A stretch of 64,000 nt of DNA from Bordetella genomosp. 9 (GTDB lineage: Bacteria; Pseudomonadota; Gammaproteobacteria; Burkholderiales; Burkholderiaceae_B). Every line of letters begins with the position of its first letter. Positions within the stretch are counted from its first letter, which is position 1. Below the pieces are notes generated by a model. The model searched no databases and was not told the origin of the DNA. It saw only the letters and a program-made list of their open reading frames with translations. Below, in pieces: positions 16,233 through 31,269 of this stretch. Where the stretch lies: positions 372,001 to 436,000 of the forward strand of contig NZ_NEVJ01000003.1 of NCBI RefSeq assembly GCF_002261425.1, read 5' to 3'. The translations under genes and the position numbers were made by a program.

Positions 16233-16361
16233 GGCTCATCCGGTGTAGCGCCCGCGCTGCGGCGGGCTCGTGAATCGTGCGGAGCTGTCTCACCCTGGGG
16301 CGCCGCGGGTGGCGCCGCGAACATGGGCGATCTATGGTGCGACCCGCGCAGCCTGTGCGTC

Positions 16362-16373
16362 AAATATATATTT
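16362..16373. promoter_or_regulatory. AT-rich palindrome AAATATATATTT upstream of ligJ-like gene
   Basis: A perfect 12-base palindrome (approximate position) lies about 130 bases upstream of the ligJ-like start in an otherwise GC-rich region, followed by AT-rich sequence up to 16405. It may be part of a regulator site or promoter. No matching regulator gene is adjacent, so the assignment is weak. Confidence 0.35.
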
Positions 16374-16420
16374 CCGAGCGATTCCATATCGAAATCGAAT
16401 AAATCGCGCAGCCGCGGCGC

Positions 16421-16448
16421 AACAAAAAACCCAGGCCGGGGCCTGGGT
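16421..16448 (-). terminator. Rho-independent terminator after the tandem Bug genes
   Basis: ACCCAGGCC (16429-16437) pairs perfectly with GGCCTGGGT (16440-16448) across a 2-base centre. Read leftward, the stem is followed by TTTTTGTT. It lies 43 bases beyond the stop of the Bug gene at 16492, in the direction of its transcription. Confidence 0.85.
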
Positions 16449-16491
16449 CGATACGCCTGGACAGGCGTGTGATCGCGGGCTTCACGCCGCG

Positions 16492-17469
16492 TCAGTCTTC
16501 CTGGCGCATGCCGGTGGCCTTGACCACCGCGCCCAGGCGCGCGCGCTCTTCGTCGCAGAACTTGACGAAGTCGGCGCGCGTGCCGCCGACGGGTTCGATG
16601 CCCAGTTCGGTCAGGCGCTTGACGTTGGCCGGATCCTTCATCGCGGCGTCCACCGCGCTGGCGACCTTGTCCAGGATGGCGTCAGGCGTGCCCTTGGGCG
16701 CGTGCACGCCGGCCCAGTGCGCGATCTTGATTTCGGGGAAGCCCTGTTCGGCGGCGGTGCTCAGTTCCGGATAGGCCTTGATGCGTTCGGACCACGTGCA
16801 GGCCAGCGCCTTGAGCTTGCCGGAACGGATCATGGGCAGCACGACGATGCTGGCCTCGGACGTCGCGTCGACCTGGTTGCCGATCACGGCGGTGACCGAT
16901 TCGGAGCCGCTCTTGTACGGGATCAGGTCCAGCTTGGCGCCGTAGGTGGTGGCCAGGATGCCTTCCACGAAATGCGGCGTGCTGCCGGTGCCGGCGGTGG
17001 CGAAATGCAGGCCATGGCCTTGCTTGGACGCTTCGACGAATTCCTTCAGGGTCGAGTAGGGCGAGTTCGCGGGCGCCACCACGACGGACGGCGCCAGGCC
17101 CACCATGGCGACCGGCACCAGATCGCTGTCCTTGTAGTGGACCTTGCGGATCATGCTGTTGGAGATCACGCCGGCGGCGCTGATCAGGAAGGTATAGCCG
17201 TCGTTGTCGGCGCGCGCGACATAGTCGGTGCCGATGACCGCGCCGGCGCCCGGCTTGTTCTCGACGACGACCTGGGCGTTCAGGTTCTTGGCGATGCCTT
17301 CGGCCGCGGCGCGGCCCAGCAGGTCGTTGGCGCCGCCCGGCGCGAACGGCACGATGACGCGGATGGGCTTGGACGGCCACTTGTCGTCCGCGAAGGCGAT
17401 TTTCGGGGTCGCGGCGACGGCGGCCATGCCAAAGGCGGCCGTACTGAAACGGCGACGAGAGATGTTCAT
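16492..17469 (-). CDS. Bug/TctC family solute-binding protein (copy A of a tandem pair)
   Basis: A 325-residue periplasmic receptor. The signal contains twin Arg in MNISRRRFSTAAFG, so export by the Tat route is possible, with cleavage near IAFA. Landmarks: VPFAPGGANDLLGRAAAEG, ENKPGAGAVIGTDYVA, NDGYTFL, IPYKSGSESVTAVIG. It is very similar along its whole length to the next gene upstream (17660-18640), including the identical RLTELGIEPVGGTRADFVKF near the C-terminus; most changes are conservative. The two therefore arose by duplication and may bind related ligands. A clear terminator follows it. There is no catabolic gene in the same operon, although the ligJ-like gene lies downstream beyond the terminator. 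Confidence 0.92.
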   Translation of the reverse strand: MNISRRRFSTAAFGMAAVAATPKIAFADDKWPSKPIRVIVPFAPGGANDLLGRAAAEGIAKNLNAQVVVENKPGAGAVIGTDYVARADNDGYTFLISAAGVISNSMIRKVHYKDSDLVPVAMVGLAPSVVVAPANSPYSTLKEFVEASKQGHGLHFATAGTGSTPHFVEGILATTYGAKLDLIPYKSGSESVTAVIGNQVDATSEASIVVLPMIRSGKLKALACTWSERIKAYPELSTAAEQGFPEIKIAHWAGVHAPKGTPDAILDKVASAVDAAMKDPANVKRLTELGIEPVGGTRADFVKFCDEERARLGAVVKATGMRQED

Positions 17470-17659
17470 TGCTGTGCTCCGGGGGTAATGCTTTTTAGTA
17501 GTTATGGTTTGTGGACTTGGTTCGTGGGACTTGGTGGGGACGTGTAATTTAACCGATTCAACGGCGCTTACGCGCCGCGTCGCGGCTTCGCAGCCGCGGC
17601 GCGATGCATTATCGAAGATGCTGTCGTGAACCTGTCAGCAAGGCGCCCAGGCGATAGGA

Positions 17660-18640
17660 TCAGGAGTCCTGCCGCATGCCCGTCGCCTTGACCACGGCGC
17701 CCAATCTGGCGCGCTCTTCGTCGCAGAATTTGACGAAGTCCGCGCGCGTGCCGCCCACCGGCTCGATGCCCAGTTCCGTCAGGCGCTTGACGTTGGCCGG
17801 GTCCTTCATGGCCTGATCCACGCCGGCGGCGATCTTGTCCAGGATGGCGTCGGGCGTGCCCTTGGGCGCATGCACGCCGGCCCAGTGCGCGATCTTGATT
17901 TTCGGAAAGCCCTGTTCGGCGGCGGTGGACAGCTCCGGATAGGCCTGGATGCGTTCGGACCAGGTGCAGGCCAGGGCCTTGAGCTTGCCGGCGCGGATCA
18001 TGGGCAGCACGACGATGCTGGCTTCGGACGTGGCGTCCACCTGGCCGCCTATCACCGCCGACACGGATTCCGATCCGCTCTTGTACGGCACCAGATCGAG
18101 CTTGGCGCCGTAGTCGGTGGTCAGGATGCCTTCGACGAAGTGCGGCGTGCTGCCGGTGCCCGCCGTCGAAAAATGCAGGCCGCCGTGGCTTTTCTTCGAC
18201 GCCTCGACGAAGTCCTTCAGGTTGGCGTACGGCGAGCTGGCCGGCGTGATGATGACCGACGGCGCCAGGCCGATCATGGCGACGGGCACCAGGTCGCTGT
18301 CCTGGTATTGCACCTTGCGGATCATGCTGTTGGAGATCACGCCGGCGCCGCTGATCAGGAAGGTATAGCCATCGTTGTCGGCACGCGCGACGTAGTCGGT
18401 GCCGATGACGGCGCCGGCGCCGGGCTTGTTCTCGACGACGACGCTGGCCTTCAGGTATTGCGCGATGCCTTCGGCCGCGGCACGCCCGAGCAGGTCGTTG
18501 GCGCCGCCCGCGGCGAAGGGGACGATGATGCGGATGGGCTTGGACGGCCACTTGTCGTCCGCGAAAGCGATCCTGGGCGCAACGGCGATGCTGGCAAGGC
18601 CGAGCGCGGCCGCGTTCAGGCGGCGTCGCACGATATCCAT
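17660..18640 (-). CDS. Bug/TctC family solute-binding protein (copy B of a tandem pair)
   Basis: A 326-residue receptor nearly the same as copy A; differences cluster in the signal peptide (MDIVRRRLNAAALG), in the segment after the first Gly-rich loop (AQYLKASVV) and in SPYANLKDFVEASKKSHGG. The pocket motifs VPFAAGGANDLLGRA, ENKPGAGAVIG and VPYKSGSESVSAVIGG are kept. By family knowledge it captures a small carboxylate in the periplasm. The 190-base gap between the copies has AT-rich patches and could hold a separate promoter for copy A, so they may be expressed independently. It lies 239 bases from the end of the ClC channel gene on the same strand. Confidence 0.92.
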   Translation of the reverse strand: MDIVRRRLNAAALGLASIAVAPRIAFADDKWPSKPIRIIVPFAAGGANDLLGRAAAEGIAQYLKASVVVENKPGAGAVIGTDYVARADNDGYTFLISGAGVISNSMIRKVQYQDSDLVPVAMIGLAPSVIITPASSPYANLKDFVEASKKSHGGLHFSTAGTGSTPHFVEGILTTDYGAKLDLVPYKSGSESVSAVIGGQVDATSEASIVVLPMIRAGKLKALACTWSERIQAYPELSTAAEQGFPKIKIAHWAGVHAPKGTPDAILDKIAAGVDQAMKDPANVKRLTELGIEPVGGTRADFVKFCDEERARLGAVVKATGMRQDS

Positions 18641-18879
18641 GTTCTGTCTCCGGTCGGTCGTTGTTATGCGTGGCGCCGTGCGGTGCGGATGTGCCGCCTG
18701 CGTCGCCCGCGCTGTGGGTGCAGCGTGGCTATTATCCGCGCGATGCGGACGCGCGGGAATCCCCGCGCCGGCTCAGTCCGCGCCGGCTCAAAGGCGCGGC
18801 CGGGGATCGCCTCGAACGATCGCCTCGCAAACGATCGCCGTCCGGATTGCGCCCAGCCCGATGTTGCGACACAGCATGG

Positions 18880-20673
18880 TCAAGGCCCGGGCGGCTGCGC
18901 CGGCCGCTGGCGCAACAGCGCATGCAGGGGCGTGCGGCGGAAGGTCTCGAAGCGCTCTTCTTCTTCGGAAAACGCCAGCGACGGCTTGACCAGGTCGCTG
19001 CGGCTGATCAGGCCGACCAGGCGGCGCGATGCGGCGTCGGCGACGACCGGCACGCGTTCCAGGCCATGGACGGCCAGGCGATTGGCCACGGTGCGGCAGG
19101 TTTCGCCGGGCAGCGCCATGATGGGCACGTTGGCGCCGAACAGGTCAGCCATCCTGTGCGCCGCCGGATCGGCCAGGCCCTGCAGCAGCGCGTCGCGGTC
19201 GATCATGCCGAGCAGGGCGCCCGCGCGCACCACGGGATAGGCACGGTGGGTCTGTCCTTCGCCGAAATAGCCGTCCAGCGCGACGCGCGGCGCCACGTCG
19301 GCATCGATGGTGCGCACGGCGGCCGTCATGACCTCGTGAACAAAGTGACGTTCCAGCGGATCGATGCCGTATTCCCGGTAGATGTGGTAGCCGCGCCGGG
19401 CGATTTTTTCCGTCAGGATGGAACGGCGCATGACCAGCACCGTGAAGCCATAGGCGCAGGCGGATGCGGTCAGCAGCGGCAGCAGGGCGTTGACGTCGTG
19501 CGTCAGCTCGAAGGCGAACAGCACCGCCATGATGGGCGCGCGCATCATGCCGCCCAGCGTCGCCGCCATGGATACCATGGGCCAGAGCCCGGGCTGGCCG
19601 CCCGGCATGTACGGGCCGAGTATGGCGCCGGCCGCCGCGCCCATCATGAGCAGGGGCGCCAGGACGCCGCCCGAGGTGCCCGACGCCAGCGAGATGACCC
19701 AGATGACGGCCTTGACCAGGATCAGGCCCGCCACGGCGCCCAGCGCCAGGTGGTTGTGCAGCAGGTCGCCGATGACGTCGTAGCCCACGCCGAGCGCGCG
19801 CGGCTGGAAGTACCCCCCGATGCCGATCGCCAGGCCGCCCAGCGCCGGCCACCACATCCAGTGCAGCGGCAGCTTCATGAACAGGTCTTCCATCTTGTAG
19901 AGCGACGTCGACAGGCCCCAGGACAAGGCGCCCGCGACCACGCCCGCGACGGCGCAGGCGACCAGGCCCGTCGGCCCCAGCACGTCGGTCTGCAGGGGAA
20001 ACAGCGCGCCGCCTTCCAGGACCAGGGGCCGGAAGAAGCCGGCCACCGCGCACGCGACCGCGACCGGCAGGAAGCTGCGCGGCCGCAGTTCGAACAGCAG
20101 GAGCTCCACCGCCAGCATGACCGCCGCGATCGGCGTGCCGAAGACGGCCGTCATGCCGGCCGTCGCGCCGGCCACCAGCAGGGTCTTGCGTTCGGCGCCG
20201 CTCAGGTGGAAATGCTGGGCGATGAGCGAGCCGATGGCGCCGCCGGTCATGATGATGGGGCCTTCCGCGCCGAACGGGCCGCCGCTGCCGATCGCGATCG
20301 CCGAGGACAAGGGCTTGAGCACGGCCACCTTGGGCGACATGCGGCTCTTGCCGAACAGGATGGCTTCGATCGCTTCCGGAATGCCGTGGCCGCGGATCTT
20401 TTCCGTGCCATAGCGCGCGATCAGCCCGATGATCAGGCCGCCGATGGCGGGGACGACGATGACCCACAGGCCCAGGGCGTTGTCCGCGGGAGAACGCGCG
20501 TCGAAGGACAGCCGCTGGAAGAAGAACAGGTTGGTGAAGAAGCCGATCAGCCGCAGCAGGGCATAGGCGGTGAGGGTGCTGAGTATGCCGATCACGGCGG
20601 CGATCGCCGCGATGCGCAGCAAGCGCGCGCTGGCGGCGAAATCGCCCTTGTTCTTGTCGGGGTGCAGGGTCAT
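18880..20673 (-). CDS. ClC-type chloride channel/transporter with C-terminal CBS pair
   Basis: A 597-residue membrane protein. Residues up to about 430 form the ClC core: HGIPEAIEAI (first motif), GSGGPFGAEGPI with the gating Glu, and GTSGGVLAPLLMMG (third motif). The last 150 residues, with MTAAVRTIDADVAPRVALDG and VPVVADAASRRLVGLISRSD, form two CBS domains, which often bind adenosine nucleotides and regulate transport. The retained gating Glu is consistent with a chloride/proton antiporter, though this is not proof. I prefer ATG 20673; a GTG at 20697 is in frame. It is divergent from the DUF3348-DUF802 cassette, with a palindrome between them. Confidence 0.92.
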   Translation of the reverse strand: MTLHPDKNKGDFAASARLLRIAAIAAVIGILSTLTAYALLRLIGFFTNLFFFQRLSFDARSPADNALGLWVIVVPAIGGLIIGLIARYGTEKIRGHGIPEAIEAILFGKSRMSPKVAVLKPLSSAIAIGSGGPFGAEGPIIMTGGAIGSLIAQHFHLSGAERKTLLVAGATAGMTAVFGTPIAAVMLAVELLLFELRPRSFLPVAVACAVAGFFRPLVLEGGALFPLQTDVLGPTGLVACAVAGVVAGALSWGLSTSLYKMEDLFMKLPLHWMWWPALGGLAIGIGGYFQPRALGVGYDVIGDLLHNHLALGAVAGLILVKAVIWVISLASGTSGGVLAPLLMMGAAAGAILGPYMPGGQPGLWPMVSMAATLGGMMRAPIMAVLFAFELTHDVNALLPLLTASACAYGFTVLVMRRSILTEKIARRGYHIYREYGIDPLERHFVHEVMTAAVRTIDADVAPRVALDGYFGEGQTHRAYPVVRAGALLGMIDRDALLQGLADPAAHRMADLFGANVPIMALPGETCRTVANRLAVHGLERVPVVADAASRRLVGLISRSDLVKPSLAFSEEEERFETFRRTPLHALLRQRPAQPPGP

Positions 20674-20713
20674 GCGCGCGTCATTCCGGAAAGCCACGAT
20701 GGAGGATGGCGCA

Positions 20714-20790: not shown

Positions 20791-21564
20791 ATGGATTCAG
20801 CACACCGGCGCGCAGGCCTGAGCGGCCCGACCCTGGTTCGCCTGCTTGCCCGCCTGACGGACATCGATGTTTCGGAACCCAGACAGTCCCTGGCCGACCG
20901 GCTCAGCCTGTGGCTGGGCTGGACGGACGCGATTGCCCTGTCCGCGGTGCTGAACAGCAATCCGCCGACGGCGGATCGCCAGCCCGACAGCGCGGAAGAA
21001 GAGGAGTGTGCCCGGGTGCGCAACGCGTTGACCAACGCCATCACGGAAAAGAACCGCGCGCCCAGGGCGGCGGACAGCCATCCCAGGACGCGCGCCGCCG
21101 CGGCCGAGCGTGGGCGGGCGCCCGCGGCGCCGGTCGACTACGGCCTTTACCGGCAGCGCTATCTTTCCCTGCAACAAGCCATGGAAACCGGCATCGGCAA
21201 CCTGCGCACGCGCCTGCGCGGCATGATGGCCGGCCGCACGCCGGCCATGACGCAGCTGGCGGCCGTCGACGCCATCATGGAAAAAGCCCTGGGCGCGCGG
21301 GAACACAATGCCCTGGCGGCGGTGCCGGGCCTGCTGGAAGGCTATTTCCACCGCCTGCGCCGCGCCGAGGCCGCCGCCCTGGCCGAGGCCGAGGACGCCG
21401 GCCATCCGCCGCCGGCCGCCGCCGGCGCGTGGCTGGATGTATTTCGCCAGGACATGCGTGCAATCCTGCTCGCCGAACTGGATATTCGTTTCAAGCCTGT
21501 CGAAGGCCTGCTGGCGGCGTTGCGCGTTCCGCGCGGCGGCCGCGCTGAACCCGGGATGTCATGA
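20791..21564 (+). CDS. DUF3348 family protein, first gene of motor-like cassette
   Basis: A 257-residue soluble protein with no signal or membrane segment. The conserved parts are the N-terminal LVRLLARLTDIDVSEPRQSL and SLWLGWTDAIALSAVL, and a helical C-terminal half from YGLYRQRYLSLQQAM to FKPVEGLLAAL. The middle is Ala, Arg and Glu rich. I recognise it as the DUF3348 family of beta-proteobacteria, whose function is not known to me. Its stop overlaps the next start by four bases (ATGA), so it is translationally coupled to the DUF802 gene and is probably made in step with it. A cytoplasmic partner of the motor-like membrane proteins downstream is a reasonable guess. No clear ribosome site precedes ATG 20791. 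Confidence 0.75.
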   Translation: MDSAHRRAGLSGPTLVRLLARLTDIDVSEPRQSLADRLSLWLGWTDAIALSAVLNSNPPTADRQPDSAEEEECARVRNALTNAITEKNRAPRAADSHPRTRAAAAERGRAPAAPVDYGLYRQRYLSLQQAMETGIGNLRTRLRGMMAGRTPAMTQLAAVDAIMEKALGAREHNALAAVPGLLEGYFHRLRRAEAAALAEAEDAGHPPPAAAGAWLDVFRQDMRAILLAELDIRFKPVEGLLAALRVPRGGRAEPGMS

Positions 21565-24116
21565 CCAGAATTCTCTCTATCGCTGCTTTCGTCTTGGGCC
21601 TGGCCGTCGTGGGCTGGGTGGGCGCGGGCTATATCGGTTCGAATCCCCTGGCGCTGGCGATGACCGCCATGATCGCGGTGGTTTTCCTGGGCGGTTGCTG
21701 GGAGCTGCGCCGCTACCAGGTGGCGACGGGCACGCTATCGCGCGCGCTGGCCGGCCTGTCGACGCCGCCGGCCACCCTGGCGGGCTGGCTGGACACGCTG
21801 CACCCCGCCTTGCGCGGGCCGGTGCGCCTGCGGGTCGAAGGCGACCGCGTGGCGCTGCCCGGACCGGCGCTCACGCCTTACCTGGTGGGCCTGCTGGTGT
21901 TGCTGGGCATGCTGGGTACCTTCCTCGGCATGGTGGCCACCCTGCGCGGCACCGGCATCGCGCTGGAAAGCGCGACGGATCTGCAAGCCATCCGGGCGTC
22001 GCTGGCGGCTCCCGTGAAGGGACTGGGCTTCGCCTTCGGCACGTCCGTCGCGGGCGTGGCGGCCTCGGCCGCGCTGGGCTTGCTGTCGGCGCTGTGCCGG
22101 CGCGAGCGCATCCTGGCCGGACAGCGGCTGGACATGGGCGTCGCCACGGTGCTGCGCGAGCACACGGCCGCCCATCGGCGCGACGAGACCTTCCGTCTGC
22201 TGCAACGCCAGGCCGAGGCGATGCCCGTCCTGGTGGACCGTCTACAGACCATGATGACGGGCATGGAGCAGCGCAATCAGTCGCTGAACGAGCAACTGGC
22301 CAGCGGCATGGCGGCGATGGAGCGGCAGCATGCCGCCATGGGCGAACGCCTGGCCACCGGACAGGCGGCGCTCGACCAGCGGCTGGCTTCCGGGCAGGAT
22401 GCCCTGAACACCCGATTGGGCGCTGGCCAGGAAGCCTTCCACGAGAAGACGGAGGCCGCCTACGCGCGGCTGGCCGCGTCGGTGGAGCACACGCTGAAGG
22501 AAAGCGCGGCCGAGGGCGCTCGCCTGGCGGGCGCGGCCCTGCAGCCGGTCGTCGAAGCGACCATGGCCGGCCTGGCGCGCGAAACCGCGGCCTTGCGCGA
22601 ATCCGTCGCGCAGGCGGTCAGGCAGCAGCACGAAGCGATCGAACAGGCCGTGCAGCGGCAGCACGTATCCTTCACCCAGGCGGTGGATCGGCAGCATGCC
22701 TCCATCACCGAGGCGGTGGAACGGCAGCATGCGTCCATTACCGAGACGGTGGAACGGCAACATGCATCGATTACCCAGGCGGTCGAACGGCAGCACGACG
22801 CCATCACCCAGGCCGCCCGGCAACAGCACGACGCCGTGGCCCAGGCCACGCTGGCGCAGCGGGAAACCATCGCCCTGGCGCTGCAGCGGCAGCAGGATAC
22901 GGTGGCCGATGCCGTGCAGAAGCAGCTGGACGGCGTGTCCACCCGTTTCGAGGCCACCGCGGCCGCGCTGGAACAGCTCTGGAACCAGGCGCTGAACCAG
23001 CACAGGCAAAGCAATGCCGCCTTGGCCGACGACCTGCGCGGGACGCTGGATCGCTATGCCGGCACGTTCGAGCAGCGCTCGGCCAGCCTGGTGGACGCGG
23101 TCGCCGGCCGTCTGGATACCGTCACCGCGGACATGTCGCGCGCCTGGACGGACGCACTGGCCTTGCAGCAGGATGTCGGCGGCGAACTGGCGACGCGCAA
23201 CCAGCAGGCGCTGACCGCGGCCGCCGCGGCCTTCGAGCAGCATTCCGCCGCGCTGCTGGCCCAATTGCTGGCGAGCTTCGAACAACAATCCGTGGCCTTG
23301 CTGCAGGCGGTCGAGCAGACCCACGACAGCCAGCGGCTGGCTCTGGAAGCGCGCGACCGCGAAAGGCTGGATGCCTGGACCGGCTCGCTGTCCGCCATCG
23401 CGGGCGACATGCGCGCGCAATGGCGCGAGACCGGCGAACAGACGACGGCGCGTCAGCAGGAAATCTGCGACACGCTGTCGCGCACCGCGCGCGAGATCAC
23501 CGAACATACGCAATCGCATGCCCGCGAGACCATCGCCGAGATCGAACGCCTGGTGCAAGCCGCCGCGGAAGCGCCGCGCGCGGCCGCCGACGTGGTCGCC
23601 GAGCTGCGCCAGAAGCTGTCCGACAGCATGGTCCGCGACAACGCCATGCTGGAAGAACGCAGCCGGCTGCTCGACACCCTGGGCACCTTGCTGGACGCGG
23701 TCAATCGCGCGTCCACCGAACAGCGCGAGGCCGTGGAAGCCCTGGTCGGCACATCCGCCGATCTGCTGGCGCGCGTCGGCAGCCAGTTCACCGATACGCT
23801 GGAAGCGGAAACCGCCAAACTGGCGGAAGCCGCGGGCCTGGTTTCCGGCAGCGTGGTCGAGGTGGCGAGCATGGGCGACGCCTTTGGCGCGGCCGTGCAG
23901 GCCTATGGCCAGTCCAACGAAAAGCTGATGGAGCATCTGCAGCGCATCGAAGGGGCCCTGGAAAAATCCATCGCCCGCAGCGACGAGCAGCTCGCGTATT
24001 ACGTGGCGCAGGCGCGCGAGGCGATCGACCTGAGCGTGATGTCGCAGAAGCAGATCATCGAGGAGCTGCAGCAACTGGCCGAGCAGCGCACGTCGGCGGG
24101 TAGCGAAGCGGCATGA
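21561..24116 (+). CDS. DUF802 protein: MotA/ExbB-like membrane core with long coiled-coil tail
   Basis: An 851-residue protein. Four membrane helices are visible: residues about 4-24, 29-48, 108-132 and 153-178. The third and fourth, LLVLLGMLGTFLGMVATL and GFAFGTSVAGVAASAALGLL, have the spacing and Gly/Thr/Ser pattern of the MotA/TolQ/ExbB proton-channel family. From residue 200 to the end the protein is almost wholly predicted helix, with exact 11-residue repeats at 352-461. A membrane motor core with a very long cytoplasmic helical tail is the layout known from ZorA of the Zorya defence system. The next gene gives the MotB-like partner. I recognise DUF802 as the family name; its role is unknown. 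All four cassette genes overlap. ExbB-like signalling or envelope energisation are alternatives. Confidence 0.8.
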   Translation: MTRILSIAAFVLGLAVVGWVGAGYIGSNPLALAMTAMIAVVFLGGCWELRRYQVATGTLSRALAGLSTPPATLAGWLDTLHPALRGPVRLRVEGDRVALPGPALTPYLVGLLVLLGMLGTFLGMVATLRGTGIALESATDLQAIRASLAAPVKGLGFAFGTSVAGVAASAALGLLSALCRRERILAGQRLDMGVATVLREHTAAHRRDETFRLLQRQAEAMPVLVDRLQTMMTGMEQRNQSLNEQLASGMAAMERQHAAMGERLATGQAALDQRLASGQDALNTRLGAGQEAFHEKTEAAYARLAASVEHTLKESAAEGARLAGAALQPVVEATMAGLARETAALRESVAQAVRQQHEAIEQAVQRQHVSFTQAVDRQHASITEAVERQHASITETVERQHASITQAVERQHDAITQAARQQHDAVAQATLAQRETIALALQRQQDTVADAVQKQLDGVSTRFEATAAALEQLWNQALNQHRQSNAALADDLRGTLDRYAGTFEQRSASLVDAVAGRLDTVTADMSRAWTDALALQQDVGGELATRNQQALTAAAAAFEQHSAALLAQLLASFEQQSVALLQAVEQTHDSQRLALEARDRERLDAWTGSLSAIAGDMRAQWRETGEQTTARQQEICDTLSRTAREITEHTQSHARETIAEIERLVQAAAEAPRAAADVVAELRQKLSDSMVRDNAMLEERSRLLDTLGTLLDAVNRASTEQREAVEALVGTSADLLARVGSQFTDTLEAETAKLAEAAGLVSGSVVEVASMGDAFGAAVQAYGQSNEKLMEHLQRIEGALEKSIARSDEQLAYYVAQAREAIDLSVMSQKQIIEELQQLAEQRTSAGSEAA
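22614..22943 (+). repeat. Ten 33-base repeats encoding hendecads in the DUF802 tail
   Basis: Residues 352-461 fall into ten consecutive 11-residue units with consensus A-V-x-R-Q-H-x-x-I-T-x; the best copies are AVDRQHASITE, AVERQHASITE and TVERQHASITQ. The unit is kept at protein level with varied codons, so it is old rather than a fresh expansion. Hendecad repeats form nearly straight or right-handed coiled coils. Confidence 0.85.
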
Positions 24117-24814
24117 ACGACGATATCGATGGCGGCATCGAGACCACGGTCCCGACCTGGGCCGTGTTTGGCGACCTGATGTCGGCCGCCCTGGGCGCCT
24201 TCGTTCTCATCCTGGTCGGTGTGGTGGGCCTGCAACTGCAGTTGTCGGCCAAGCTCGACGAGGAAGTCAAGCAGCGGCAGGCCGAGACGCAGCGGCGCCA
24301 GACGCTGGAGCAGGCGCTGGCCGTGCCGCTGGCGACGGGGCGCATCACCCTGGTCAACGGCCGCATCGGCATCAGCGGGAATGTGCTGTTCGCCTTGAAT
24401 TCCGACCAGTTGCAGCCCGAGGGGCGCGAGGTGCTGAAGAGCCTGGCGCAACCGCTGACCGATTACCTGCGTACCCGCGATGAGGTGCTGATGGTGAGCG
24501 GCTTCACCGACAACCAGCAGGTGCGCGGCAACAATCGCGGATTTGCCGACAATTGGGAGCTGTCCGCGCAACGGGCGCTGACGGTGACGCGGGCGCTGAT
24601 CGACGCCGGGGTGGCGCCGGAGTCGGTGTTTGCGGCGGCCTTCGGGGCGGAGCATCCGGTGGCGTCGAACGCCGACGCGGATGGCCGCGCCAAGAACCGC
24701 CGCGTGGAAATCGCGCCGGTGCCACGGCAGGCGGGGCAGGAGCGCGCGCCGCAGATGGTGCCGCAAACGGCGCCGCCGGCCGGCACGGGCGCCCAGAGGC
24801 CGGGCGGTGAGTAA
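24113..24814 (+). CDS. OmpA/MotB-like protein, partner of DUF802
   Basis: A 233-residue protein with one membrane helix (about residues 22-42) directly after PTWAVFGDLMSAALGA. Asp21 lines up with the proton-carrying Asp of MotB-type stator proteins, which sits at the same place before the helix. A helical linker (EEVKQRQAETQRRQTLEQAL) leads to an OmpA-like domain: FALNSDQLQPEGREVLKSLA, VSGFTDNQQVRG, NWELSAQRALTV and NRRVEIAPV, which binds peptidoglycan in relatives. The last 25 residues are Pro and Gln rich. With the MotA/ExbB-like DUF802 protein it makes the two essential parts of an ion-driven membrane motor. The start overlaps the DUF802 stop (ATGA) and the end overlaps the DUF2894 start by eight bases. 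Confidence 0.85.
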   Translation: MNDDIDGGIETTVPTWAVFGDLMSAALGAFVLILVGVVGLQLQLSAKLDEEVKQRQAETQRRQTLEQALAVPLATGRITLVNGRIGISGNVLFALNSDQLQPEGREVLKSLAQPLTDYLRTRDEVLMVSGFTDNQQVRGNNRGFADNWELSAQRALTVTRALIDAGVAPESVFAAAFGAEHPVASNADADGRAKNRRVEIAPVPRQAGQERAPQMVPQTAPPAGTGAQRPGGE

Positions 24815-25511
24815 GGCGCCACCAGACGGCGCCACGGCGCCCAGCGTGCTCGATACGCTGGCGGCCTGGCGCGAACAGGGCGCCGATCGGCTGGACCCGA
24901 CCCGGTTCCGCATCATCGAGGCGCTGGCGCGCCGCGCCGCCGCCGCCCAAGGCGATGCCGCGCGCGGCGTGCTGGAACAAAGGCTGGCGCAACGGGTGCA
25001 GGCCTATCAGCGCGATGTCGACGCGGCCCGCGTGCAACCCGTCGAAGGCCATCCGGACGGCGGGCAGCCGGCGGCGACGCCGGGGCCGGAAAGTCCGCTT
25101 TCCGCCTTTATCCGGGAATTGCAGGCAACCGCCGCCAGGCCGGCCGCCTCGGCTGCTTCGGCTGCTTCGGCCGAAGACGCCGCGCCGAGCATGGCCGCCG
25201 CCAGCTATCCCGACCTCGCATTGCTGGACTTCTTCCGCGACACCTGGGGCCGCTACAAGACCCGCCGGCAGTTGAAGCAATCCGAAGAGCGCGTCCCGGA
25301 AAACGCCGGGCCGCTGAACTCCAGCCTGCTGGTGCACCGCACCCTGTCGCTTATGCGCGAGGTTTCTCCCGAATACCTGCATCAATTTCTTTCCTACGTC
25401 GACGCGTTGGCATGGGTGGAGCAGGCCACCAGCGTCGATCTCCTGACCGACAAGGACCGGGCCAGAGGCGGTGCCCGGAAAGCCTCCCGCGGCCCTCGAT
25501 CCCCGGGCTAG
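24807..25511 (+). CDS. DUF2894 family protein, last gene of motor-like cassette
   Basis: A 234-residue soluble protein starting with GTG at 24807, inside the end of the OmpA-like gene. The conserved N-terminal block reads LDTLAAWREQGADRLDPTRF, RIIEALARRAA and EQRLAQRVQAYQRDV; the C-terminal block includes YPDLALLDFFRDTWGRYKTR and LMREVSPEYLHQFLSYVDAL. A variable, Ala-rich linker joins them. I recognise the DUF2894 family, of unknown function, regularly found with DUF802 and DUF3348. No membrane segment or enzyme motif is seen. Tight coupling with the motor-like pair points to a structural, regulatory or output role in the same complex. After its stop come about 150 bases of spacer before the Yellow-like lipoprotein. 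Confidence 0.72.
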   Translation: MSKAPPDGATAPSVLDTLAAWREQGADRLDPTRFRIIEALARRAAAAQGDAARGVLEQRLAQRVQAYQRDVDAARVQPVEGHPDGGQPAATPGPESPLSAFIRELQATAARPAASAASAASAEDAAPSMAAASYPDLALLDFFRDTWGRYKTRRQLKQSEERVPENAGPLNSSLLVHRTLSLMREVSPEYLHQFLSYVDALAWVEQATSVDLLTDKDRARGGARKASRGPRSPG

Positions 25512-25664: not shown

Positions 25665-26795
25665 ATGCCATTGGCCAAATCCCTGACCGTCATGGGCCGT
25701 CTCGCCACGGCCTGCCTCGCGCTTGCCATCATCCAGGGTTGCGCGAGCCGTCCCGAAAGCAATGAACCGCTGGTCCCCACCTTCCAGAGCCAGAGGGTGC
25801 TGAACGGCGTCACCACCACGCCGGAAGGCCGGGTGTTCGTCAGCTATCCGCAGGCTGACGGCAAAGGCATGCAGGTTGCCGAACTGGACGCGCAAGGCCA
25901 GCCTTATCCGTTCCCCGACGCCAGCTGGAACAGCCCGCAGAGCTGGGCGCCCGGCACGGTGGGATCGGGCTATGTGCAAGTGAATTCGCTGCGCACCGGT
26001 CCGGACGGCAAGCTGTGGATCCTGGATGCCGGGGCGCCGGGCATGGGCCAGCAGGCGGTCAAGGGCGGCGCGCGGCTGTTCCGCTTCGATCCGCAGACCC
26101 GGCAGCTGCTGCAGACCTACGACCTGGCGGCCGCCGTCTATCCGTACAGCTTTATCGACGACGTCCGCTTCAACGGCCGCTACGCCTATCTGACCGACGC
26201 CGGCGCGCCCGGGTTGATCGTGCTCGATCTGCAGACCGGGGCAGTGCGCCGGGTGCTGGACAACAATAACGCCACCACCGCCATGCGGCAGTTGCGGGCG
26301 GATGGCCATGCGGTGCTGGATACCAAGGGCCAGCCGGTGCGCGTCCATGCCGACCAGCTGGAAGTGTCGCCGGACGGGCAATGGCTGTACTTCCAGCCGG
26401 CTTCCGGTCCCATGGCGCGGATCGCCACGCGCTGGCTGAACGATCCGGCGGTGTCCGAAAAGGAAATCGAGTCTCGGGTCGAGCTGGCCTGGGCTGACAC
26501 GCCCAGCACGGGCGGCACGGCCATCGACGCCCAGGGCAATCTGTACACCACGGATACCGACAAGCATCGCATCCTGCGGATCAGCCCCGAGGGCAAGATC
26601 TCCACGGTGATCCAGGACGATCGCCTGGTCTGGGGCGATGCGCTGTGGATCGACCGCCAGGGTTTCCTGTGGATTCCGGCTTCGCAGCTCAGCCGTACGC
26701 CGGCGTTCAATAGCGGCCGTATGGAGGTGCAGTACCCGGTGTGGATCTACCGGCTGCAGATCCATGCGGCGCCGAGCCCGCTGGATCATCCTTGA
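25665..26795 (+). CDS. Major royal jelly/Yellow-family lipoprotein
   Basis: A 376-residue protein with a lipoprotein signal whose lipobox IIQGC ends at Cys27. The mature part is a beta-propeller of the MRJP/Yellow family: RVLNGVTTTPEGRVFVSYPQ, WAPGTVGSGYVQVNSLRTGP, GKLWILDAGAP, YLTDAGAPGLIVLDL and WGDALWIDRQGFLWIPASQL are characteristic. Bacterial members have been called L-dopachrome tautomerase-related proteins, but enzyme activity is not established in most; ligand binding is equally likely. The protein should face the periplasm, anchored in a membrane. It has an AAGGAGA ribosome site and stands alone, ending near a hairpin-rich AT stretch shared with the convergent chrA gene. Confidence 0.82.
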   Translation: MPLAKSLTVMGRLATACLALAIIQGCASRPESNEPLVPTFQSQRVLNGVTTTPEGRVFVSYPQADGKGMQVAELDAQGQPYPFPDASWNSPQSWAPGTVGSGYVQVNSLRTGPDGKLWILDAGAPGMGQQAVKGGARLFRFDPQTRQLLQTYDLAAAVYPYSFIDDVRFNGRYAYLTDAGAPGLIVLDLQTGAVRRVLDNNNATTAMRQLRADGHAVLDTKGQPVRVHADQLEVSPDGQWLYFQPASGPMARIATRWLNDPAVSEKEIESRVELAWADTPSTGGTAIDAQGNLYTTDTDKHRILRISPEGKISTVIQDDRLVWGDALWIDRQGFLWIPASQLSRTPAFNSGRMEVQYPVWIYRLQIHAAPSPLDHP

Positions 26796-26818
26796 GCCGC
26801 CGACTTCACGTGAGCCTG

Positions 26819-26889
26819 CCCCTTCGCCCGAGTTAAAGAAAATTATTTAAAGTAGTTTCTTTAAAGTGATTTCTTAACTCGGAGAAGGG
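26819..26889. repeat. AT-rich imperfect inverted repeat with internal 15-base direct repeat
   Basis: CCGAGTTAA (26828-26836) pairs with TTAACTCGG (26874-26882), and flanking CCCTTC/GAAGGG extend the stem. Between them TTTAAAGTAGTTTCT and TTTAAAGTGATTTCT are direct repeats. It lies between convergent genes and may act as a two-way terminator, though it lacks a clean GC stem with U-tract. It is far more AT rich than its surroundings. Confidence 0.6.
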
Positions 26890-27009
26890 TGAACAACCGA
26901 ATTTAATCAGTAAGTTGAGGCGTGTACTTGATGTATTTTGGTAGGGGTTGGTGATTGGCCTGTACGCTCAGCGTGGGAGCGACGCCGGCAGCGGCGGTAC
27001 GGGCCAGCA

Positions 27010-28194
27010 TCAGCCGACCGCCGCCATCAACCAGCCGCCCGCCGCGGCGAGGGCGACGATCAGCAGCGGCGGCCAGCGCATGACCGTCAATAGCGCGAAG
27101 CACAGCAACGCCAGGCCGAAATCCGCCGGCGATCCGATGGCGCTGGTCCAGACCGGGTTGTACAGCGCGGACAGCAGTATCCCCACCACGCCGGCATTGA
27201 TGCCGGCGACCGCGTTCTGTATGCCTGGCCGCGAGCGCAGCAAATGCCAGAAGGGCAAGGCCGCCACCACCAGCAGCGCGGCGGGCAGGAAGATCGCCAC
27301 CAGCATGGCGAACCCGCCGGCCCACCCGGACAAGGGCCCGTTGGACACCGTGCCGAGAAAGGCCGCGAACGTGAACAGCGGTCCCGGCACCGCCTGCGCC
27401 GCGCCATACCCCGCCAGGAAGTCGGCGTTCGACACCATGCCGCCGCTGACCGCGGTGGACTGCAGCAGGGGAAGCACCACGTGGCCGCCGCCGAACACCA
27501 GCGCGCCGGAACGATAGAAGCCGGCGAACTGCGTCAGCCACGCCTGTCCCGTCAGCTCCGCCAGCACGGGCAGGCCGGCCAGCAGCACGAAGAACAACAC
27601 GAGGGCGACGGCGCCGGTCCGCGTGCCGATGTTCAAGGCCATGGCCGCGGGCAAGGGCCGTGGCGGGACGCGCAACAGCGCCGCGCCCACCAGGCCGCAG
27701 GCTACGATGGCGCCCACCTGGCTCCACGCGGTAGGCAGCAACAGCGTCAGCAATGTCGCCGCGACGGCCAGCATGGCGCGGGGCCGATCCGGGCACAGCG
27801 AGCGGGCCATGCCCCATACCGCCTGCGCCACGATCGCCACGGCGACGATCTTCAGGCCATGGACGGCGCCTGAACCGGCGAGCCCGCCGTAACGGGACAG
27901 GCCCAGGCCGAACACGATCAGCAGCAGCGCCGAAGGCAGGGTGAACGCCACCCAGGCGGCCAGCATGCCGGCCCAGCCGGCCCGCATCAGGCCGATGGTC
28001 ATGCCGACCTTGCTGCTGGCGGGGCCGGGCAGGAATTGGCTCAACGCGACGATATCGGAATACGTGTGTTCGTCCAGCCATTTGCGGCGTTCGACGAATT
28101 CGCCGCGAAAGTACCCCAGATGGGCAACCGGGCCGCCGAAGGACGTCAATCCAAGGCGCAGAAACAGCAGGAAAACGTCGATCCAGGCGGGCAT
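27010..28194 (-). CDS. chrA: Chromate transporter ChrA
   Basis: A 394-residue inner-membrane protein with two homologous halves, the long-chain ChrA form. The first half begins FLRLGLTSFGGPVAHLGYF and has ALSQFLPGPASSKVGMTIG; the second repeats the pattern with FYRSGALVFGGGHVVLPLL and YGAAQAVPGPLFTFAAFLG. These FGG and PGP motifs define the CHR superfamily, which exports chromate, probably with proton or sulfate exchange. No chrB-type regulator is adjacent, so resistance in the strain cannot be inferred; some homologues have other substrates. The ATG at 28194 gives the usual short N-terminus. It is convergent with the Yellow-like gene and 59 bases from the next gene upstream on the same strand. 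Confidence 0.92.
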   Translation of the reverse strand: MPAWIDVFLLFLRLGLTSFGGPVAHLGYFRGEFVERRKWLDEHTYSDIVALSQFLPGPASSKVGMTIGLMRAGWAGMLAAWVAFTLPSALLLIVFGLGLSRYGGLAGSGAVHGLKIVAVAIVAQAVWGMARSLCPDRPRAMLAVAATLLTLLLPTAWSQVGAIVACGLVGAALLRVPPRPLPAAMALNIGTRTGAVALVLFFVLLAGLPVLAELTGQAWLTQFAGFYRSGALVFGGGHVVLPLLQSTAVSGGMVSNADFLAGYGAAQAVPGPLFTFAAFLGTVSNGPLSGWAGGFAMLVAIFLPAALLVVAALPFWHLLRSRPGIQNAVAGINAGVVGILLSALYNPVWTSAIGSPADFGLALLCFALLTVMRWPPLLIVALAAAGGWLMAAVG

Positions 28195-28253
28195 CGTTGC
28201 AGGGTTTCAGTGGCGGTGCGTCTATATAGCACAGCCCCATGACCCCGCGACGG

Positions 28254-28583
28254 CTAAGGCCGGGTGGCCGTGGCCGATCCGGCGGCTGCGGTGGGGGCGC
28301 CCGCCGGCATGGCCCCGGGCTGCATCTCGATGTTCAGCCACCGGTCTCCCGGCTCGCCGCTGAGCGTTCGGGCCGTGCCGGGGAGCAGGTGGTACTCGGT
28401 GCGTTGCGTGTTCTCCGATTCCACGAACAGCACGATCTCCTGCTCGGTCGTGTTTGTCAGGTATATCTGCTCGGACGTCACGGAGAGGCTGGGCACGACC
28501 GCCGCGGCGGTCTGCGCGTTGGCCGCGCAAGAAATGGACAAGGCGAAGGCAAGCGCCACGGGGCGGTGCAAATGGCTGCGCAT
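28254..28583 (-). CDS. Small exported protein, hypothetical
   Basis: A 109-residue protein with a Sec signal (MRSHLHRPVALAFALSISCA, cleavage near ANA). The mature part has a beta-rich core (SVTSEQIYLTNTTEQEIVLF, TEYHLLPGTARTLSG, RWLNIEMQPG), which suggests a small immunoglobulin-like or chaperone-like sandwich, then an Ala, Gly and Thr-rich tail. I do not recognise a family. The presence of a TxxxIxLxNxT pattern typical of periplasmic surface strands is suggestive only. A GAGGTCC sequence sits before ATG 28583. It could share a transcript with chrA, 59 bases downstream. Confidence 0.62.
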   Translation of the reverse strand: MRSHLHRPVALAFALSISCAANAQTAAAVVPSLSVTSEQIYLTNTTEQEIVLFVESENTQRTEYHLLPGTARTLSGEPGDRWLNIEMQPGAMPAGAPTAAAGSATATRP

Positions 28584-28992
28584 GATGTGGACCTCGATGT
28601 ATCCAGCGATGGACCTACGGGGTGCGGCAGCGGCGCGAATAGGGCGACCGGCCGCGTTGTGTCGCGGCGCTGGCGCATAAGCAGCGACGGCACGCCAGGC
28701 CGGCGCCGATTACACAGCGCGTCCCGGCCGGGAACAATTGCGACTTCGCTCAGTGGGCCCTGACAGCGGGCCGTGGCGACCGTGCGAGGCCATCCCTTAT
28801 GGCACATCCCTACGCCGACGCGCCCGGTTGCGACCTCCGGAAAATTCATGCTTTTATAAGTAAAAGGTAGCCAACCGCCCCGACGCCGGTCGCTTTTGGG
28901 GACGGCGGCCGCACCGGGCGAGGTGCGCACGGCGTGCAAAGCGCGTCCGGATGGCACGTGATGCACGAGAACGCCTGTGGGCATGCCGGCCC
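28584..28992. other. Intergenic region, about 409 bases
   Basis: No gene with recognisable product was found here. Frames that cross it are long only because of GC-rich composition. The single notable element is CTTTTA-TAAG-TAAAAG at 28851-28866, a small AT-rich inverted repeat that could be part of a promoter for the small exported protein on the minus strand. Confidence 0.55.
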
Positions 28993-29937
28993 TTATCGCC
29001 CGGCGTCGCGGGCCACGCTGGTATCGAGCATCCGCGCCAGTTCCTGCCGCGTGCGCGGCGCGCGCTGCTGTACGCCCGCCGCCCAGGGCTCCATGTCGGT
29101 CAGCACCGTCATCAGCGATTCCGTATCCAGCCGGGCCGGAAAGCGGAATTGCGGCCATGCCTTTTCGATCACGGGCACGGGCGCGTTGACGGCCTTGGAC
29201 AGGGCCGGCCAATACTTGCGCGGATGGGCGCTCAATTCCCCGGACACGTCGGCGATCGTCTTCACCGACCGCACCAGCGCCTCGCGCCGCCGCGGGTCAT
29301 TCAGTACCGCCGTGGTCGTATTCAGGTTGAACCGCTCGAAGTAGGCGTGGGGCGGCTTGCGCGGATCCGTCATGACGATCGCATCCTTGCCGAGCTGGTC
29401 GATGGCGTTCTGCGGGTGAGGCTCCCACATCGCCATCGCGTCGGCCTGGCCCTGGACCAGGGCGGGCGGCATGGCTTCCGGTTCGAGCTTGACCGGCGTG
29501 ACGTCGGCCAGCGTCAAGCCGGCCGATTGCAGCATGACGCGCAGGAAGTACTCGGAAGACGTCGCCGGCGTATAGGCGACGCGCTTGCCGCGCAGGTCGG
29601 CGATGCGGTGTACGCCGGCGCTGCGGCGGCCAACCATCCGGTAATGGCATTCGGCCAGCGTCAGGATTATCCGCAGCTGCGGCTGCAGCACCGCGCTGAG
29701 CGTCGCCTGGGTTTCGCTGCCGGTGGCGGCGTCGGCCTGGCCACCCACCAGCTGCGCCGACGCCGCGCGCCCGTTCGGCAGGCGCACCACGCGGATGCCG
29801 GGCGGATTGCCGATCAGCAGGGGGCCGCTTTCTATCGTGGTCTGGTTGACCGCGACCGGCATCAGGCCATCGTCGGCGCGCGCCGCCGACCACAGCGGGG
29901 CCGTCGCCAGCAGACCCAGTAATTGGCGTCTTTGCAT
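28993..29937 (-). CDS. ABC transporter substrate-binding protein, NitT/TauT (SsuA-like) type
   Basis: A 314-residue protein with a short signal (MQRRQLLGLLATAPLWSAARA). The body follows the SsuA/NrtA fold: PVAVNQTTIESGPLLIGNPP, QLVGGQADAATGSETQATL, ADLRGKRVAYTPATSSEYFL, LVQGQADAMAMWEPHPQNA and MTDPRKPPHAYFERFNL. Relatives bind nitrate, taurine, alkanesulfonates or thiamine precursors. No ATPase or permease gene lies nearby, so it is an orphan receptor. It begins 13 bases after the hydrolase gene upstream and is almost certainly in the same transcript, which suggests its ligand is a product or substrate of that hydrolase; that link is inferred. Confidence 0.85.
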   Translation of the reverse strand: MQRRQLLGLLATAPLWSAARADDGLMPVAVNQTTIESGPLLIGNPPGIRVVRLPNGRAASAQLVGGQADAATGSETQATLSAVLQPQLRIILTLAECHYRMVGRRSAGVHRIADLRGKRVAYTPATSSEYFLRVMLQSAGLTLADVTPVKLEPEAMPPALVQGQADAMAMWEPHPQNAIDQLGKDAIVMTDPRKPPHAYFERFNLNTTTAVLNDPRRREALVRSVKTIADVSGELSAHPRKYWPALSKAVNAPVPVIEKAWPQFRFPARLDTESLMTVLTDMEPWAAGVQQRAPRTRQELARMLDTSVARDAGR

Positions 29938-29950
29938 CGTCGTCTCCTGC

Positions 29951-31093
29951 TCAACCGGCGGAACCCGCGGTGCGTGGGCGCGGCTGTTTTTCGATATTGC
30001 GGTCGATCCAATCCAGCAACCAGTCGGCGACCTTCAGGCTGTTGCGGTCCTGCATCAGCATGTGGGAGTTGCCGCGGAAGCCGACCTGCGGCAGTTCCAC
30101 GAGCCGCGCGTTGCCGCCGGCCTTGGCGACCGCATCGATGAATTCGCGGCATTTCTGCAGCCGGGGCGCCCAGCGCGGGGCGATTTCGACGTTGTCGCCA
30201 TAGACCACCAGGATGGGCAGCCGCGTGTAGGGCTTGAGATCGCCGGTCGCCGCGGGGCATACCGTCGGCTCGATCGCGACGATGCCGGCTATCCCCTCGG
30301 CACTGATCGCAGCCGTCTGGAAGGGGTAGACGCCGCCCTGCGAATGGCTCATCAGGATCGTGCCGCGCAGTTGCCGGGCCAGGGTCGACAGATTGGGCAC
30401 GGTGGGATTGGGCGACGGCAGGGCCGCGAACCAGTCGGGCACCAGCTGCTTCCACAGTTCGGCCTGGGCTTCCAGGGGAAAGGCCAGGTTGGGGTAGGGC
30501 TTGGGATACTCCGGACCGAAGCGGAACACGGTCCAGGCTTCCTCATGCCCGGCCGCGAACAGGGCGGGCAGGGTGTCGGGCGCCGTCTTGCCCATCTTCA
30601 CGCTATTGATGGCGGATGGATCGAAGGCCGAGCGCCCGCGCGCGACCTGGTCGATGGTGTACGTCGCGTAGCCTTTGCGGACGAAGTATTCCTGCCAACC
30701 CATGCGGCCGTCCGGCGTGGTTTCCCAGGTCTTGCCGGTCAGGCAGCAGCCATGGATCAGCGTGATGGAATAGCGCCTGGCGCGCGGCGGTATCTGGTAG
30801 CTGACGTACATCTGGTCGACGGTGATGGTGCCTTCGGCGCCGCGTCCGGGCGCCGTCGACAAGGTGTCCGAGCGCACCTCGCGGCCGCCGACGAAGAAGC
30901 TGCCCTGGGCTTGCAGGGTCAGCGGCTTGCCCGTGCTTGTGCTCGCGGGCGGGGCGGCCATGGCGCCGGCCATGGCCACCATGGCGAGCGCCGCCGTGGC
31001 GACCCGTGCCACGATCCCGCGCGCGGCGGCTTTCCACGCGACGCCGCGCACGGCGTCCTTCCATTGAATACCGAACGTCTCTCCAAACGTCAT
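29951..31093 (-). CDS. Exported alpha/beta hydrolase
   Basis: A 380-residue hydrolase with an N-terminal region of about 45 residues containing a hydrophobic stretch (GIVARVATAALAMVAMAGA) that should act as a signal or anchor. The core shows LIHGCCLTGKTWETTPDG (oxyanion loop), the nucleophile elbow LMSHSQGGVYP near residue 245, ILVVYGDNVEIAP (acid strand) and GNSHMLMQDRNS carrying the catalytic His. This matches the esterase-like family with HGxxxTxxxW loops found in many proteobacteria; its substrate is unknown. ATG 31093 was chosen because it yields the signal and has GGAGACAGG upstream; the longer frame to 31180 is unlikely. It leads an operon with the SsuA-like receptor and is divergent from the CorA-like gene. 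Confidence 0.82.
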   Translation of the reverse strand: MTFGETFGIQWKDAVRGVAWKAAARGIVARVATAALAMVAMAGAMAAPPASTSTGKPLTLQAQGSFFVGGREVRSDTLSTAPGRGAEGTITVDQMYVSYQIPPRARRYSITLIHGCCLTGKTWETTPDGRMGWQEYFVRKGYATYTIDQVARGRSAFDPSAINSVKMGKTAPDTLPALFAAGHEEAWTVFRFGPEYPKPYPNLAFPLEAQAELWKQLVPDWFAALPSPNPTVPNLSTLARQLRGTILMSHSQGGVYPFQTAAISAEGIAGIVAIEPTVCPAATGDLKPYTRLPILVVYGDNVEIAPRWAPRLQKCREFIDAVAKAGGNARLVELPQVGFRGNSHMLMQDRNSLKVADWLLDWIDRNIEKQPRPRTAGSAG

Positions 31094-31269
31094 GGTCCTG
31101 TCTCCGTTGTTGTTTTCGTTATCCGCGGCGCCTGCGGCGCCGTCGGTACCCGCAAGGGTACAGTCGCCGGCTGACAACACACTTAGGGCGGATGCGTTGT
31201 CATACTGGCGTCATGGGGCAACGGTATTGATGGCGCCTGTTTCACCGACTCCCACCGGTACGCCGCCCC

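Follow-up and report, generated by a model that had tools for sequence, protein, structure and literature searches.

A Zorya type III operon in Bordetella genomosp. 9 whose ZorA protein has a repeat-variable rod between a conserved motor and a conserved tip

The window analysed in this study is a 64,000-nucleotide stretch of the Bordetella genomosp. 9 genome (contig NZ_NEVJ01000003.1, positions 372,001 to 436,000). As shown in Table 1, four genes lie on its plus strand between positions 20791 and 25511 in the order DUF3348, ZorA, ZorB and DUF2894, each overlapping the next (by 4, 4 and 8 bases), as an initial annotation had described. All four were matched by the PADLOC models for Zorya type III, and ZorB was also matched by the NCBIfam model PRK09040 (hypothetical protein, 9.1e-114). 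The cassette belongs to Zorya type III, an anti-phage system already in the literature. The type was defined in 2021 from 6,401 cases, and a copy from Stenotrophomonas nitritireducens reduced plaquing of at least one phage in E. coli (Payne et al. 2021, PMC8565338). The machine had been annotated as uncharacterised, which was wrong, since the gene set is that of type III and a homologue protects E. coli. Two component names are swapped between sources: DUF2894 is ZorF3 and DUF3348 is ZorG3 in PADLOC-DB (models PDLC00652-00658), whereas DUF3348 is ZorF and DUF2894 is ZorG in PMC8565338 and PMC11890865.

Table 1. Positions in the window of the Zorya type III genes and of features within their proteins.
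Feature	Position	Strand	Description
DUF3348 protein	20791..21564	+	257 aa; PF11828 4.3e-86; PADLOC 1.5e-92; no membrane segment; all-helical AlphaFold2 model, pLDDT 76.8, pTM 0.67
ZorA type III (DUF802 protein)	21561..24116	+	851 aa; PADLOC ZorA3 1122.9 bits; NCBIfam ZorA_2 6.3e-07, below its cut-off
ZorA motor part	21561..22235	+	residues 1-225; four hydrophobic segments; putative pore residues Thr120, Thr161, Ser162
11-residue tandem array in ZorA rod	22611..22937	+	residues about 351-459; about 10 copies (9.91); lag-11 score 40.0, identity 0.59
Best stretch of Pfam DUF802, part of rod	22935..23093	+	residues 459-511; PF05650
ZorA conserved tip	23529..24113	+	residues 657-851; many residues invariant in 76/76
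ZorB type III	24113..24814	+	233 aa; one membrane helix, OmpA-type domain; PADLOC ZorB3 3.5e-114; PF00691 2.4e-19
ZorB Asp21 codon	24173..24175	+	D in 76/76 operons and 42/42 of the second set
DUF2894 protein	24807..25511	+	234 aa; GTG start; PF11445 5.4e-57; PADLOC 2.7e-69; no membrane segment; helical AlphaFold2 model, pLDDT 70.3, pTM 0.39
Basic C-terminal tail of DUF2894	25443..25508	+	last 22 residues; median net charge +6 (range 2 to 10), n=76

The window and 80 fetched loci gave a set of 81, in which all four genes were complete in 76 (75 fetched loci and the window). Gene order was identical in 76/76. Four of the five incomplete loci (L003, L009, L011 and L051) run off the end of their contig, and L070 lacks most of the operon. 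From about position 10716 of L070 onward, a DUF3348 gene and a short ZorA-like start are followed by no match to ZorA, ZorB or DUF2894 in the remaining locus, and this may be a truncated operon or an assembly fault. A second set of 43 regions yielded 41 ZorA proteins, one region having no motor and one being cut by a contig end. It repeats three loci of the first set (L185, L190 and L192 are identical to L047, L057 and L067), so that 38 of the 41 ZorA were new.

Simple hydropathy placed four membrane-like segments in ZorA of the window (residues 4-22, 29-47, 108-126 and 157-175) and one in ZorB (residues 22-40). By the same crude scan, 28 of the 76 ZorA had four segments, 38 had five, nine had six and one had three. 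The initial annotation had proposed a DUF802 protein with a MotA/ExbB-like core and a tail of about 650 residues. The core held when the fold was tested by sequence models, and the tail beyond residue 225 measured 626 residues; however, the four-helix core was recognised by the ZorA models and not by Pfam DUF802 (PF05650, 53 positions), which matched in two stretches (9e-26) and best within the tail. Identity to the window was high in motor residues 101-175 (mean 0.88 to 0.95 in the 76-operon alignment). Thr120, Thr161 and Ser162 were invariant in 76/76 operons and in 41/41 ZorA of the second set.

An Asp is the ion-carrying residue of stator B subunits. The membrane Asp21 and the OmpA domain predicted for ZorB were both present, and the Asp, whose conservation had been set as a test, was invariant among the homologues of both sets (Table 1). 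The proposed stator pair with a long ZorA-like tail is supported by this residue and by the ZorA3 and ZorB3 models. In the OmpA domain, a putative peptidoglycan-binding domain, D133, R154, N195, R196 and R197 were invariant in our alignment. ZorB matched the MotB structure 3khn_A over residues 85-201 only (5.5e-16), and the cryo-EM ZorB chain 8vvn_B when scored as a whole sequence (3.2e-4), although none of the individual stretches passed. ZorA5ZorB2 (5:2) structures have been solved for types I and II; there the corresponding Asp sits against a ring of Ser/Thr residues, and defence requires it (PMC11890865). Judged by residue conservation, the reading of an ion-driven motor is supported by the invariant ZorB Asp21 and ZorA Thr120, Thr161 and Ser162.

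DUF3348 and DUF2894 had been proposed as cytoplasmic partners of the motor. Consistent with this, hydropathy found no membrane segment in 76/76 DUF3348 and 76/76 DUF2894 proteins. Neither protein had a convincing Pfam domain besides its own DUF, their models had no convincing structural match, and neither Pfam nor structure comparison revealed an effector domain such as a nuclease or helicase in either. The C-terminal tail of DUF2894 was within one charge of the most basic 22-mer of its own protein in 75/76. We infer that DUF2894 may dock to the ZorA tip or to DNA.

ZorA varied widely in length, from 643 to 1229 aa among the 76 operons and from 555 to 1229 aa over both sets. At 0.15 nm per residue, the 76 lengths correspond to a computed rod reach of about 63 to 151 nm. 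As many as 48/76 ZorA were 696-699, 784-788, 871-872, 958-959 or 1045 aa long, in steps of about 87 residues. The remaining 28/76 were off this series, and the best single step over all lengths was 85.25, not 87. The strongest mean self-match of the tails was at lag 87. When each tail was scanned separately, strong repeats, defined by a score of at least 25 (best of 40 shuffled tails, 7.6), were found in 55/76. The unit length varied by lineage and was 11, 29, 33, 51, 55, 80, 87, 98, 131 or 149 residues. In the second set, strong repeats were found in 18/41 ZorA, or 17/38 without the duplicates.

Taking 3.636 residues per helical turn, we found that every unit of the first set came within 0.13 turn of an integer. 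The mean cosine of this register fit was 0.938, which was equalled by 1 in 20,000 jittered sets. The second set added units of 22, 62, 69, 76 and 124 residues, none of them from the duplicated loci, and with the pitch fixed beforehand these were at most 0.11 turn off whole; for 62, 69 and 76 alone the chance was 0.0075, assuming uniform deviations. All 15 unit lengths jointly beat 20,000/20,000 jittered sets. These P values overstate the case, because the units are partly multiples of each other (22, 33 and 55 of 11; 87 = 3 x 29; 124 = 2 x 62) or sums (80 = 29 + 51; 131 = 51 + 80; 98 = 87 + 11; 62 = 51 + 11). Even so, units of close to whole turns remain plainly the rule. The hydrophobic period of type III tails averaged 3.65 residues, and that of the window tail peaked at 3.675, with 3.58-3.60 nearer the tip.

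In the window ZorA, residues 351-450 could hardly be paired with other sequences of the alignment (0.01-0.03), as one would expect of differing repeat units. The tree built from the conserved parts has 76 rows, with long branches, including that of the window, and unsure deep forks; on it, repeat state, coded in 20 states, must have changed 35 times or more. Closely related loci were one unit apart: L028 has two copies of the 87-residue unit and L046 has three, and L035/L036 and L072/L077 differ likewise by one unit. The 29-residue unit occurs three times in L040 and six times in L027. Two units within the arrays of L036, L046 and L033 were 94-96 percent identical in DNA, higher than the 80-92 percent between end units and those of the compared species, which points to recent duplication in these three. 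A between-species unit identity of 0.53 was set aside because the array anchors were unaligned between species. These results suggest that species differ in rod length by close to whole numbers of helical turns, with both ends unchanged. The repeat rule was not found in the Zorya literature searched. The Zorya structure paper of Hu et al. (Nature, 2025), which reportedly treats the type I tail, lay outside that search.

At the far end of the rod, the tip was conserved and acidic (median charge -11). Its identity to the window was 0.71-0.92 in 10 of 13 blocks of 15 residues and 0.49-0.62 in the other three. As controls, we used eight ZorA of the same bacterial family that were found by the type I model, with matches spanning most of the model; their scores of 29.7 to 184.9 bits all lie below the cut-off of 190, so they represent other types and are not proven type I. 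G191, whose match was its own type III ZorA, and partial matches were left out. Unlike type III ZorA, the eight controls had no tandem repeats (scores 4 to 6 only) and a small length spread (664-692 aa); their tail hydrophobic period was 3.635. PMC11890865 describes the components of types I and II as varying little in size within a family; the controls agree with this, and type III, at 555-1229 aa, departs from it. Type III ZorA has a fixed motor, a fixed tip and a repeat-variable rod between them.

The neighbourhood of the cassette was examined over ten flanking genes (15207-20697 and 25665-32301). The annotation that ZorC, ZorD and ZorE are lacking was confirmed for these ten and the four cassette genes: none had a PADLOC match to zorC or zorD or a Pfam helicase, and none had a model or domain match to zorE or HNH. 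No other defence model matched the flanking genes except for a weak match (1.5e-4) of a CorA-type transporter to CorA, so there was no sign of a defence island. Flanks differed between genera, and no conserved neighbour named a function, the commonest flanking family occurring in 18/76 loci.

In genome G108, the cassette is flanked as in the window by ClcA, MRJP-like, ChrA, NMT1 and CorA genes, which were 86-89 percent identical between the two; two unnamed neighbours were 82 percent and 61 percent identical (the latter over 44 of 109 residues). Within the cassette, identity was 86-90 percent for ZorB, 79 for DUF3348, 66 for ZorA and 58 for DUF2894. Two adjacent genes for TctC-type solute receptors lie on the minus strand of the window (16492-17469 and 17660-18640) beside an amidohydrolase gene; the pair had no match in the 13 kb upstream of ClcA in G108. 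A 409-aa open frame (29951-31180, minus strand) was 81.8 percent identical over 363 residues in G108 and had no Pfam match at 0.001.

The distribution of the operon was followed through DUF3348, in genome sets that each include a centre genome picked for carrying it. DUF3348 was found in 9/9 genomes of the genus of Bordetella genomosp. 2, in 41/43 of the genus of Achromobacter kerstersii, in 98/268 of the family around G001, in 279/398 sampled from the family around G004 and in 8/369 sampled from the whole class. Of the 119 non-carriers in the G004 family, 17 of the 20 listed have genomes under 3 Mb. Most carriers had a single DUF3348 match (41/41 in the Achromobacter genus, 6/9 in the Bordetella genus and 269/279 in the G004 family), and the remaining carriers had two, as split hits or second copies. 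Type III is near-fixed in two genera and widespread in one family.

DUF2894 was present in 98/98 DUF3348-bearing genomes of the 268-genome family. It was found in 100/268 altogether, the other two being short matches in G040 and G095. The G095 match (G095:C1:838834-838950) is confined to the final 39 positions of the DUF2894 model, in a genome without a DUF3348 match, and is a possible remnant. One TAG stop codon lies within the DUF2894 match of G086 (G086:C56:89888-90373). At L188 (G511:C2:482000-489700), the ZorA motor was not found and the ZorB match was split over two frames, with DUF3348, the tip and DUF2894 still there; this is probably a decaying copy.

The type I ZorA model at its cut-off matched 0/268 genomes of the G001 family. 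At a threshold of 0.001 it matched 52/268, many of these being weak hits at type III ZorA itself, and at 60 bits or more five genomes, one of them (G035) in the Achromobacter genus. DUF3348 was found in 27 of 72,556 plasmid records, all replicons of 0.37 to 3.5 Mb of which 7 were predicted mobilizable, and in 0/50,697 phages. Distances between type III operons followed those of rpoB (r = 0.68, P = 2e-4, 27 genomes), with values for the parts from 0.47 (ZorA motor) to 0.66; the rpoB frame was picked by motif, and the 27 genomes came from 30 loci, two of them having no rpoB match. This correlation indicates mainly vertical descent with some discord. Type III looks resident in several Burkholderiales genera. 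Such residency was not found in the literature searched, the search being one for Zorya in general. Among frequent carriers, PMC11890865 already names Burkholderia, Paraburkholderia and Ralstonia, and it regards the pattern shown by the three Zorya types as typical of anti-phage systems.

We consider it reasonably probable that the cassette is a Zorya III defence motor, a ZorA5ZorB2 assembly with a long rod and tip in which DUF3348 and DUF2894 replace ZorC and ZorD or ZorE. Five ZorA and two ZorB would form an ion-driven motor in the inner membrane, with the 5:2 assembly and its rotation presumed for type III. A phage that disturbs the envelope may lead ZorB to grip or sense peptidoglycan, and ions passing Asp21 would turn ZorA together with the long helical rod reaching into the cytoplasm. 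The probable docking site of DUF3348 and DUF2894 is the conserved tip or its surroundings, and the two proteins probably either block the incoming phage themselves or relay that block. The basic tail of DUF2894 would be the best candidate for contact with DNA or the acidic tip, and the rod middle would be a spacer whose length may change if helical register is kept. This defence motor is supported by the PADLOC, Pfam and NCBIfam matches, the invariant residues, the gene order (76/76) and the joint presence of DUF3348 and DUF2894 (98/98). The conserved motor and tip around a variable rod, the near-equal tail periods of type III (3.65) and other types (3.635), and the basic DUF2894 tail beside an acidic ZorA tip point the same way, as do the published protection (PMC8565338) and the structural and mutant work on types I and II (PMC11890865). 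The lack of a recognised effector domain in DUF3348 and DUF2894 counts against it. An ion leak, in which ZorAB opens on infection and de-energises the cell with DUF3348 and DUF2894 only as a gate and no nucleic-acid effector, would agree with the absence of an enzyme fold in both proteins and with the regulator role that Payne et al. proposed for them (PMC8565338). We nevertheless regard a leak as unlikely, as the pore alone would give little reason for such strong conservation of a tip so distant from the membrane, and the authors of the type I and II work suggest that ZorAB recruits effectors acting on DNA (PMC11890865).

Near-fixed presence in some genera, which is unusual for a defence system, and the absence of a defence island in the ten flanking genes also count against the defence motor. 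Both would fit a cassette that in Burkholderiales is primarily a resident envelope or housekeeping machine, its protection of E. coli on overexpression being a side effect or second role. Such a machine is also favoured by the carriage of the operon in 41/43, 9/9 and 279/398 genomes, mostly with one DUF3348 match per carrier, by distances that follow rpoB (r = 0.68, n = 27), by its absence from 50,697 phages, and by the 27 plasmid records all being replicons of 0.37 to 3.5 Mb, of which 7 were predicted mobilizable. However, the operon is rare in the class (8/369) and absent from 170/268 genomes of the G001 family, and it seems dispensable, given the incomplete L070 and L188 and what may be a remnant in G095. 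ZorA and DUF2894 are also less alike between the window and G108 than most neighbours are, as expected of a conflict system, and a homologue has published phage protection (PMC8565338); we therefore think a primary housekeeping role quite improbable. In a CRISPRi screen of Burkholderia cenocepacia K56-2, which has a predicted Zorya III, none of the predicted defence genes affected fitness against phage Bcep176, which counts against a simple defence reading, although transcription of the first gene or first two genes of Zorya I and III did change (PMC12584637). A report on Variovorax does no more than list Zorya type III as a predicted system (PMC11953036).

How the rod came to vary is a separate matter from the identification as Zorya III. 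Repeats may arise by neutral slippage in replication or recombination, with out-of-register changes lost because they break the helical bundle, and rod length would then have no function. Many unit types, at least 35 changes of repeat state on the 76-row tree, sister species one unit apart and the commonness of repeat-poor forms near 698 residues agree with slippage, whereas the eight ZorA tails of other types have no repeats despite nearly the same helical period. We give this account about an even chance, and it rivals only a functional reading of length. Tentatively, and with rather less confidence, we propose that type III ZorA is a drive shaft of evolvable length, resident in several Burkholderiales genera, in which a five-helix rod joining the two fixed ends would be lengthened and shortened repeatedly by tandem duplication, and selection would keep only changes of nearly whole turns so that the rotational register between motor and tip is held and reach is tunable.

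If the drive-shaft reading is true, angular coupling between motor and tip, by torque or twist along the rod, matters for defence, and reach into the cytoplasm can be tuned. Type III bears on how the ZorA rod relays a signal from the membrane motor to effectors, which is a question in Zorya biology, and it is a Zorya type with no DNA-acting effector recognised. It offers a natural experiment: 114 different rods whose lengths vary and whose ends do not, together with a rule of almost whole turns at a pitch of 3.636. Its near-fixed presence in some Burkholderiales genera asks whether a defence system may be standing inherited immunity rather than exchangeable cargo.

MotAB, ExbBD and TolQR stators share a motor core and a B-subunit Asp. 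ZorAB resembles them in both, and the window differs from them in its 626-residue cytoplasmic tail and its DUF3348 and DUF2894 partners. With Zorya types I and II the cassette shares a MotA/MotB-like pair, a membrane Asp, an OmpA domain and a long helical tail; it lacks the zorC and zorD of type I and the zorE of type II. All four components are common to the window and Zorya type III as described by PADLOC and by Payne et al. (2021), with no difference in gene content. Within that type, the window ZorA, at 851 aa and with its 11-residue array, stands outside the length series near 698, 785, 872, 959 and 1045.
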